From: a virus
DNA: 25,125 nucleotides
IMG/VR virus record: IMGVR_UViG_3300032296_000936
Span: 1 to 25,125 of that record
Direction: 5' to 3' (one strand)
Position 1 is the first letter of the stretch; the number at the start of each line of letters is the position of its first letter. The position numbers were made by a program, and so were the translations under genes. The notes under the pieces are model-generated. The model saw nothing but the letters and a program-made list of their open reading frames with translations, did no database searches and was not told where the DNA came from. Positions 15,268-17,506 of the stretch are shown here, piece after piece.

Positions 15268-16083
15268 ATGAAAACACTACGTCGTAGCGTAGGTAAGGCA
15301 GAGGTGGGAGGGGAACCATTACTCCCACCTTTCCAAGCCTTTGCTAGAGAAGGAATCATTCTACGGCGTGCAGAAGTAACAGTAATTGCTGGCACCCCTG
15401 GTGCTGGTAAGTCAAGTATTGCATTGCATATCGCTGCAAGATTAAAACAACCGACATTATATTTCTCAGCAGATACCAATGCACATACAATGGCTATGCG
15501 ATTACTCGCACTTCGAGCACGCATACCACAACAACAAGCAGAACAAATGCTAAAGACCCAACCAGATACAGCCGAATCTATCTTGCGTGAGTATGGAAAT
15601 ATGTATTGGTCATTCGAACCAAGCCCTACTCTCCGTGATTTAGATGAAGAAGTATCTGCATTCGAAACTATATGGGGTAGAAGTCCTACTCTTATAGTCG
15701 TTGATAATCTTATGGACATTGCTATTGATGGACATGAAGAGTTTGCAGGTATGCGACAGGTTATGAAGGAGTTAAAGTATCTAGCCCGTGATACTAATGC
15801 AGCAGTGTTAGTCTTACACCATACGCAGGAAGGTGCACCTGGTTATCCGTGTCAGCCACGCTCAGCGTTGCAAGGCAAAGTTGCACAGATTCCTGCTATG
15901 GTTCTAACAGTAGGACAGATGATGCAGGGTACAGATATGTACTTATGTGTAGCCCCAGTTAAAAATCGGTATGGCAAAGCCGATCCAACTGGTAACACAT
16001 ATGTATCTCTATCATTTGACCCAGCATCAATGCATCTAGAAGATATAGTTAGAGACTACAGACAAGTGGAGATGAAAGTATAA
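15268..16083 (+). CDS. RecA/DnaB-type ATPase (helicase-like)
   Basis: The product has 271 residues. Walker A is GTPGAGKS at 42-49, after the ITVIAG-like strand; Walker B is LIVVDN at 142-147, followed by an LVLHHT strand with the sensor-type His pair, as in DnaB and AAA_25/RepA-like ATPases. The N-terminal DnaB domain is absent, so it is a short helicase core or a recombinase-type motor. Together with the primase halves just downstream it probably forms the replication machinery. The start is two bases after the upstream stop, without a strong ribosome site. Confidence 0.85.
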   Translation: MKTLRRSVGKAEVGGEPLLPPFQAFAREGIILRRAEVTVIAGTPGAGKSSIALHIAARLKQPTLYFSADTNAHTMAMRLLALRARIPQQQAEQMLKTQPDTAESILREYGNMYWSFEPSPTLRDLDEEVSAFETIWGRSPTLIVVDNLMDIAIDGHEEFAGMRQVMKELKYLARDTNAAVLVLHHTQEGAPGYPCQPRSALQGKVAQIPAMVLTVGQMMQGTDMYLCVAPVKNRYGKADPTGNTYVSLSFDPASMHLEDIVRDYRQVEMKV

Positions 16084-16226
16084 TGCCAAAGTATAGAATC
16101 ACATACTCACAATATAAAGTAAAAGTTATTCGTGCTTCCTCATTAGAGATAGCAGAAGAACGTGCAAAGAAAATGGAAACAGGACGTTGGGAACTAACAG
16201 AAGTTAGAGACGAACCTAACGAATGA
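16083..16226 (+). CDS. 47-residue basic micro-protein
   Basis: The ATG overlaps the ATPase stop, and the stop overlaps the ATG of the next gene. The product has strand-helix-strand shape (YRITYSQYKVKVIRA, SLEIAEERAKKME, RWELTEVRD), the same beta-alpha-beta pattern as the small gene at 10436. It may be a minimal phage module of unknown role. Confidence 0.62.
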   Translation: MPKYRITYSQYKVKVIRASSLEIAEERAKKMETGRWELTEVRDEPNE

Positions 16227-16579
16227 GTAGCGCAGCCAAAGCCAAAGGCTCAGGAGCCGAACGGGATGTAGTTAAGTACCTCAAGCAATGGTTTCCTTAT
16301 GTTGATAGGCGTTTGGCTGGTGCTACACTAGATAAAGGTGACATCTCAGGTATACCTGGAGTTACAATTGAGATAAAAAATCATGCCAAGATGGACTTGG
16401 CTGGTTGGACAGAAGAGTTGATAGTCGAAATGGCTAACGACAAAGCATGGACAGGCGTGGTGTGGCACAAGCGCAAGGGTAGGGGAAGTCCTGGCGACTG
16501 GTACTGCACCATGCCTGCACATGTATGGGTAGACTTACTAAGGAGAGCATTAAATGACTCAGGAAAAAACGTATTGTGA
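16223..16579 (+). CDS. Resolvase-like PD-(D/E)XK nuclease
   Basis: The product has 118 residues, the length of archaeal-type Holliday junction resolvases. Key residues are Glu13 in GSGAERDVV, Asp40 in KGDISG and EIKN at 50-53, giving the E...D...E-x-K active site. It lies between the helicase-like ATPase and the primase, in keeping with a role in resolving branched DNA before packaging. It could also be a VRR-NUC type endonuclease. The reading frame starts in an ATGA overlap with the gene before. Confidence 0.8.
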   Translation: MSSAAKAKGSGAERDVVKYLKQWFPYVDRRLAGATLDKGDISGIPGVTIEIKNHAKMDLAGWTEELIVEMANDKAWTGVVWHKRKGRGSPGDWYCTMPAHVWVDLLRRALNDSGKNVL

Positions 16580-16664
16580 AAGTTGTTTAGAGAATCTAGA
16601 TGATGATGAGTTTGATTACAGATATGATTTCCCTATATGTTTAGATTGTACAAATGCAAGATAA
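16554..16664 (+). CDS. 36-residue zinc-ribbon micro-protein
   Basis: AAGGAG lies 8 bases before the ATG, which is inside the end of the resolvase gene. Two pairs, CESC near residue 8 and CLDC near residue 29, make a minimal zinc ribbon with a highly acidic middle (ENLDDDEFDY). The stop overlaps the primase start by 11 bases. Confidence 0.6.
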   Translation: MTQEKTYCESCLENLDDDEFDYRYDFPICLDCTNAR

Positions 16665-17034
16665 GCCCAGCATTGAAGAGTATCTCAACTACATAGGAGC
16701 AGAGATACCAGCACGTGGTAGTGGTTGGCGTAAAATGAAATGCTGCTTCCACATAGACACACATGCAAGTGCAGCAATAAACTTCGACAAGAACGCCTTT
16801 GTCTGCCACGGGTGTGGTGTCAAAGGCGATACTTATTCCCTGATTATGCATAAGGAAGGAATTAATTTTAGTGAGGCTAAACAATTCGCAGAGAAGTTTT
16901 CTTCTTCAGGCAACACAGAGATACGCAGCCAAGATAGAAGGCGTAGCCGACTATCTATCAAGCCGTCAACTCTCGGTAGAAGAGGCAAACATATTTCATC
17001 TGGGTCTGGTAGAAGACCCGCTGCCAGGGCATGA
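16654..17034 (+). CDS. DNA primase, CHC2 zinc-finger part
   Basis: The frame has 126 residues. Residues 1-82 form a CHC2-type primase zinc finger: C30-x2-H33 (CCFH), then C51-x2-C54 (CHGC), with the following GVKGDTYSLI and EAKQFAEKF helix. This module recognises template DNA. From about residue 83 the sequence turns into an Arg/Ser-rich string lacking domain character. The TOPRIM domain that should follow is in the +1 frame from 16898. The real product is therefore probably longer, joined by a +1 frameshift at the TTTT run; otherwise the two parts act as separate proteins, or there is a base error. Confidence 0.8.
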   Translation: MQDKPSIEEYLNYIGAEIPARGSGWRKMKCCFHIDTHASAAINFDKNAFVCHGCGVKGDTYSLIMHKEGINFSEAKQFAEKFSSSGNTEIRSQDRRRSRLSIKPSTLGRRGKHISSGSGRRPAARA

Positions 17035-17506
17035 GCCGTATACTGGCAGGCTAGCCATTCCATATATCACGCCATCAGGCGTGGTAGATATTAGATTCCG
17101 TGACTTAACAGGTACCCACGATGCTAAGTACATGGGATTAGTTGGTTCCGAAACCACCATGTTTAATACTCAGGCAGTATTTGCAGCCGATGATTATATA
17201 TGTGTGACCGAAGGTGAGTTCGATTGTATTATGATGAGCGTCAAGACTCAGCACCCAACAGTAGGTATTCCTGGCGCAAATAACTGGAAGAAACACTACT
17301 CGAAAATCCTAGATGATTTCGAAACAGTGATAGTATTAGCCGATGGCGATAAGCCAGGGCTAGAGTTCGGTAAGAAGATTAGCCGTGAGTTAGGTAATGT
17401 AAACATTATCTCTATGCCAGACGGTGAAGATGTAAACAGTATGATAATCAAGCAAGGGAGTGAATGGATTGACGAACGAATCAGAGAATGCATTGCCATT
17501 GGATGA
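16871..17506 (+). CDS. DNA primase, TOPRIM part
   Basis: The frame has 211 residues counted from a GTG at 16871 that has AGGAAGGA about 10 bases before it. The useful domain begins at about residue 13 with ATQRYAAKIEGVADYLSSRQLS, then LPGHEPYTGRLAIPY and IRFRDLTG, and the TOPRIM motifs: TEGEFD (113-118, catalytic Glu) and ADGD (157-160, metal-binding Asp). It is the catalytic half of a phage DnaG-type primase, which makes RNA primers. It lacks its own zinc finger, which lies in the upstream frame. Confidence 0.8.
   Translation: MRLNNSQRSFLLQATQRYAAKIEGVADYLSSRQLSVEEANIFHLGLVEDPLPGHEPYTGRLAIPYITPSGVVDIRFRDLTGTHDAKYMGLVGSETTMFNTQAVFAADDYICVTEGEFDCIMMSVKTQHPTVGIPGANNWKKHYSKILDDFETVIVLADGDKPGLEFGKKISRELGNVNIISMPDGEDVNSMIIKQGSEWIDERIRECIAIG
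16894..16903 (+). other. Possible +1 frameshift site in primase
   Basis: The zero frame reads AAG TTT TCT. The TTTT run (16897-16900) lets a Phe tRNA on TTT move one base forward, after which the frame reads CTT CTT CAG, giving EKF-LLQATQRYAAK. This joins the CHC2 and TOPRIM halves into one sensible chain of about 280 residues. A missing or extra T in the assembly would look the same. Confidence 0.45.

Follow-up and report, generated by a model that had tools for sequence, protein, structure and literature searches.

How is a primase produced when its zinc-binding and catalytic halves are encoded in different reading frames of the same DNA? The question is raised by a 25,125-base IMG/VR virus record, referred to below as the window, which is actinophage-like and encodes WhiB, a DnaB-like helicase, RusA, a terminase, and a portal protein. 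The CHC2 and TOPRIM open reading frames of the window are in a +1 relation and share 164 nt (Table 1). The sequence-only reading of the locus had left three explanations open: a programmed frameshift at TTT-T, two cooperating proteins, or a sequencing error. Its coordinates, motifs, and bases are correct, and both open reading frames, their +1 relation, the TTT-T at 16897–16900, and the GTG at 16871 were confirmed. From the comparison of relatives we conclude, with a probability of about 93%, that the primase consists of two separately initiated proteins from overlapping genes, a zinc subunit and a DnaG-like catalytic subunit. The two primase genes are already listed in databases, and what is added here is the dual-coding overlap and the natural separation of the genes in one lineage. 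No description of the dual coding was found in the open-access literature searched.

Table 1. Features of the primase locus and its neighbours in the window
Feature	Positions	Strand	Description
DnaB-like helicase, probable partner	15268–16083	+	phrog_243 E=4.6e-69; DnaB_C E=3.7e-13
RusA-like Holliday junction resolvase, conserved neighbour	16223–16579	+	phrog_244 E=8.8e-25
CHC2 zinc-binding primase subunit	16654–17034	+	126 aa; Pfam Zn_ribbon_DnaG E=5.9e-11; phrog_360 E=1.8e-28
Shine-Dalgarno-like AAGGAAGG	16852–16859	+	11 nt spacing to GTG 16871; duplex energy -9.8 kcal/mol
TOPRIM catalytic (RNA polymerase domain) primase subunit	16871–17506	+	211 aa, GTG start; Pfam Toprim_2 E=6.6e-9; phrog_849 E=2.4e-43
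TOPRIM start codon GTG	16871–16873	+	start-codon conservation in relatives
Dual-coding overlap, 164 nt	16871–17034	+	constraint in both frames
TTTT, proposed slip site	16897–16900	+	present in window; poorly kept among relatives
CHC2 stop codon TGA	17032–17034	+	within CAT-GAG (His-Glu) of TOPRIM frame

Structures of the two subunits

The zinc ligands of the CHC2 subunit, Cys30, His33, Cys51, and Cys54, are arranged as C-x2-H...C-x2-C and are invariant in 41 CHC2 relatives. The AlphaFold model of the subunit has a pLDDT of about 90 up to residue 80 and is confident up to approximately residue 84, where the last helix (residues 72–84) ends. It matches primase zinc domains in Foldseek searches, the best of which is the primase zinc-binding domain 1d0q; the zinc domain also hits 1d0q with E=1.4e-16 in a separate comparison. 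The C-terminal tail, approximately residues 86–126, is predicted to be disordered, with pLDDT below 50 at residues 86–124. In phages of cluster A, Streptomyces, and Cutibacterium, P-x-W and basic residues form the end of the tail. A small open reading frame (MTQEKTYCESCLENLDDDEFDYRYDFPICLDCTNAR, 16554–16664, + strand) with two CxxC pairs overlaps the start of the CHC2 gene, and a CxxC frame is found at this place in only 3 of 309 loci.

The TOPRIM subunit was predicted with a mean pLDDT of 92, and its first helix is formed by residues 5–19. Residues E114, G115, E116, D118, D158, and D160, which include those of the EGxxD and DxD motifs, are invariant in 45 relatives. Foldseek matches the model to DnaG catalytic cores (E=2e-10), T7 gp4, and Twinkle. 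Annotated-phage rows were left out of the alignments used for the structure predictions. The last helix of the CHC2 subunit and the first helix of the TOPRIM subunit, both confidently predicted, share the DNA at approximately 16883–16905. Because the helices overlap on the DNA, a fusion made by a single slip could not hold both of them whole.

Conservation of the arrangement in relatives

Relatives of the TOPRIM subunit were retrieved from viral contigs by six queries, one of which was the window. The same +1 offset is present in 271 of 271 loci, which are those of the first sets in which the upstream DNA is long enough and include a few contigs counted twice, and the CHC2 stop is located 143–185 nt past the TOPRIM start. 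The offset and the position of the stop are also the same in 61 Cutibacterium-phage loci. TOPRIM matches occur in 1,478 annotated phage records, mainly of Mycobacterium, Streptomyces, Propionibacterium/Cutibacterium, Rhodococcus, and Gordonia phages, and a single match, which is prophage-like, was obtained from 84,980 genomes of bacterial and archaeal species. A second primase copy on contigs retrieved twice, for example L047 and L231, was rejected because the positions coincide and belong to one locus. Since the layout is kept in hundreds of phages, it is not due to chance. The overlapping arrangement is old and common to hundreds of phages of actinobacteria.

Start of the catalytic subunit

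The TOPRIM start codon is GTG in 64 and ATG in two of the 66 representatives of the window's clade, and GTG in 35 and ATG in 22 of the 57 representatives of the OX clade. Among the 56 representatives of cluster A, the start is TTG (44), ATG (3), ATC (8), or ATT (1). The TOPRIM frame is closed by a stop just upstream of the start in most OX and cluster A sequences. The start is preceded by a Shine-Dalgarno sequence, with clade medians of the anti-Shine-Dalgarno duplex energy of -11.9 (fresh, the window's clade), -9.2 (OX), and -15.6 (cluster A), compared to control means of approximately -3.5 to -4.6. The cluster A sequence, GAGGAGGTGA, has ideal spacing, and the 11 nt spacing in the window is long. 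The overlapping Streptomyces clade (29 sequences) exhibits no enrichment of the signal over background. The N-terminus of the TOPRIM subunit is kept upstream of TTTT, as VRLNNSQR, VRLSSSQR, or LQRLSESQR, and in one case the arginine of frame 2 is retained (AGA to CGT) while two residues of frame 1 differ.

Most of the loci with ATC or ATT at the start position contain a frame-2 stop just upstream. As such loci make up 9 of the 56 in cluster A, initiation there needs a rare start codon, and AUC or AUU initiation is possible in these cluster A phages. The codon near position 1501 is ATC in L177, L180, L181, L187, L188, L203, L217, and L222, and ATT in L209. Mycobacterium phage IronMan (L278, 1281–1374) has ATC at the TOPRIM start, and in it, as in the other loci named here, the codon is located behind a Shine-Dalgarno sequence.

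Dual coding in the overlap

The synonymous O/E of the TOPRIM frame in the overlap is mostly 0.06–0.77 in the window's clade and 0.30–0.90 in the OX clade, and it is back to approximately 1 in the ten codons that hold or follow the CHC2 stop. The strongest block is formed by TOPRIM codons 31–40, a near-invariant segment of 30 nt (16961–16990) with an O/E of 0.06 in 66 relatives, which also encodes the conserved sequence KPSTLGRRGK of the CHC2 tail. From codon 13 to the stop, the CHC2 frame of the overlap has an omega of 1.4, 0.8, and 1.0 in three clades, compared to 4.3, 6.1, and 2.1 in the same clades just downstream, where the frame is noncoding. In trees of the window's clade, 2 of 420 changes create a stop in the CHC2 frame within the overlap, compared to 48 of 546 after it (p=1.6e-10; Fisher p-values take substitutions as independent and are therefore indicative). 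The synonymous fraction of changes in the CHC2 frame of the same clade is 0.245 in the overlap and 0.038 after it. The CHC2 stop is read within CATGAR in 64 of 66 sequences of the window's clade. Cluster A uses CAT-GAN at the stop, although the CAC:CAT ratio for histidine elsewhere in the gene is 73:7.

These substitution patterns indicate that both frames are selected across the overlap up to the CHC2 stop. The sequence-only reading had placed a passage of coding from one frame to the other between approximately 16897 and 16914; no such point exists, as both frames are under selection over the whole of 16871–17034. The dual-coding substitution tests were not significant in the overlapping Streptomyces clade (29 sequences), and thus the case there rests on the homology of the tail.

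Natural separation of the genes in the Animus lineage

In the lineage of Streptomyces phage Animus, comprising 38 loci including that of Animus, the CHC2 and TOPRIM genes do not overlap. The CHC2 stop is followed by AAGGAGG and, 13–15 nt further on, by a TTG start. The relative frame of the genes is the usual one in 12 loci, another one in 23, and the third in 3. Because all three relative frames occur, a single shift cannot join the halves across the lineage. The variation of the frames also implies that it is the overlap that holds the relation at +1 in the other phages.

The CHC2 tail of the Animus lineage has the sequence SRYGGG...GGGYVPAWKRK, and that encoded in the overlap by other Streptomyces phages is ...GGGYTPAWRRR. 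The profile of the former matches the overlap-encoded Streptomyces tails with E down to 1.8e-5, compared to 2.4 for the best decoy; the tail of the window is not recovered by this profile (E=14). The profile matches indicate that the tail of the Animus lineage is homologous to that encoded in the overlap by other Streptomyces phages.

Alternative explanations

An error of sequencing or assembly, in which a wrong T count splits a single primase gene, could be envisaged for a metagenomic virus record in which a one-base change would open a single frame. However, all 271 loci, which come from independent samples, have the same split, as do the genomes of isolated phages of Mycobacterium, Gordonia, Rhodococcus, Streptomyces, and Cutibacterium, so that hundreds of independent relatives exclude this explanation. 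A programmed +1 ribosomal frameshift at TTT-T that fuses the halves, with or without separate products, would agree with the long overlap and unchanging +1 offset of most relatives and with the nine cluster A sequences, out of 56, whose start position holds ATC or ATT. It has also been claimed, without data, for the primase gene of mycobacteriophage OKCentral2016 (PMC5824014). Nevertheless, the slippery bases are mostly absent in relatives: of 81 close relatives, only eight contain the slip-site codons AAG-TTT-TCT, and 63 carry G-TTC instead of TTT-T. Downstream RNA structure is inconsistent across relatives, with z from -2.5 to 0.4. Furthermore, constraint on the TOPRIM frame reaches back beyond the slip site to a conserved start codon with a Shine-Dalgarno sequence; the CHC2 frame is constrained past the slip site to its own stop; and 26 of the 38 loci with separated genes are in other relative frames. 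A frameshift is therefore very unlikely, and the label of a programmed frameshift in the primase of OKCentral2016 is probably wrong.

It could also be argued that only the zinc domain and the TOPRIM protein are important. The CHC2 tail would then result incidentally from a stop that comes late, and the low synonymous rate would be due to a signal in the DNA or RNA, such as an origin or a regulatory element. The predicted disorder of the tail and the near-invariant 30-nt block of the window's clade are in line with this explanation, which we nevertheless consider improbable to the same high degree as the frameshift. The constraint tracks the codon structure of CHC2, avoids stops, and ends at the CHC2 stop, and homology of the tail persists where the genes do not overlap. 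Moreover, folding z-scores are unremarkable in most sequences.

Expression and proposed assembly of the primase

Two separately initiated proteins remain the best explanation. As shown by the comparison of sequences, both frames appear as translated proteins with conserved start and stop codons, whose genes work unlinked in one lineage. A primase of the DnaG/T7-gp4 type would be encoded as two proteins on one mRNA. The CHC2 gene would provide the zinc-binding, template-recognising subunit with a disordered tail of approximately 40 residues, and the TOPRIM gene would be initiated independently at GTG 16871, aided by the upstream Shine-Dalgarno sequence, to provide the catalytic subunit. In one frame, the overlap would encode the tail and, before it, the helix that ends the zinc domain; in the other, it would encode the first helix of the catalytic subunit. 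The subunits and the DnaB-like helicase, whose gene lies a short way upstream, may assemble in trans, with the tail as a putative tether. Of the two cooperating proteins that the sequence-only reading had suggested, the two proteins are borne out by the start codon, Shine-Dalgarno sequence, dual-coding constraint, and separated lineage; their cooperation is what we infer. Action from one chain on another has been reported for DnaG subunits (Corn et al. 2005, as cited in PMC6163395). We tentatively propose, at somewhat less than even odds, that the disordered tail encoded within the catalytic gene is a specific tether between the zinc domain and the catalytic subunit or helicase, replacing the covalent linker of DnaG and T7 gp4, and that the catalytic subunit starts at AUC or AUU in some cluster A phages.

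Comparison alone settles the expression mode of a very common replication gene pair of actinophages. The locus represents a clean natural case of long dual coding that several phage groups have retained and one lineage has lost, and the pair is a ready two-chain primase for studying the action of the zinc domain in trans. The results also indicate recurrent annotation errors, in which zinc subunits are missing and catalytic subunits are truncated at the N-terminus. The annotated TOPRIM gene of IronMan begins 93 nt downstream, without the conserved first helix. The CHC2 gene is present in the DNA yet unannotated in RetrieverFever (L279), CA1NRNZ (L280), and SargentShorty9 (L287), and in RetrieverFever a hypothetical gene is annotated over it on the other strand.

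Comparison with known systems

The pair of PHROG 360 and PHROG 849 proteins of cluster A mycobacteriophages and their relatives has the same two domains and the same +1 overlap as the window. The overlap is 164–173 nt long in VohminGhazi gp61/gp60, Cutibacterium phage PA6 gp32/gp31, and the N-terminal and C-terminal genes of Gordonia phage Strosahl. A table of P. acnes phage genes lists both gp31 and gp32 as DNA primase with overlapping coordinates, on which the passages found do not comment (PMC3094311). Genes for a DnaB-like helicase and a metallophosphoesterase are located near the primase pair in several annotated phages. However, identity between the window protein and its mycobacteriophage counterpart is only about 45%, and the GTG start of the window is located one codon further downstream than the TTG of cluster A. 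Gp38 and gp39 of the Animus lineage are the same two proteins in the same gene neighbourhood, but, unlike in the window, their genes do not overlap and their frame relation varies.

The pair shares a Shine-Dalgarno-like sequence and a +1 overlapping frame with programmed frameshifting of the prfB type, but it does not have a conserved slippery codon, and both frames are fully coding through the overlap. The CHC2 zinc domain (1d0q, 2au3) and TOPRIM core (3b39, 5vaz) of bacterial DnaG are similar to those of the window. Whereas DnaG has the zinc and catalytic domains in one chain, the window encodes two chains in two frames with two starts, and the 211-residue subunit does not contain the C-terminal helicase-binding domain of DnaG. 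The TOPRIM half also resembles T7 gp4 structures, as in the comparison with T7 gp4 and Twinkle, and phrog_239 matches both the TOPRIM and the helicase proteins. T7 combines all three parts in one chain, whereas the window distributes them among three genes; including the helicase, the locus looks like a primase-helicase of the T7 gp4 type divided into three genes.
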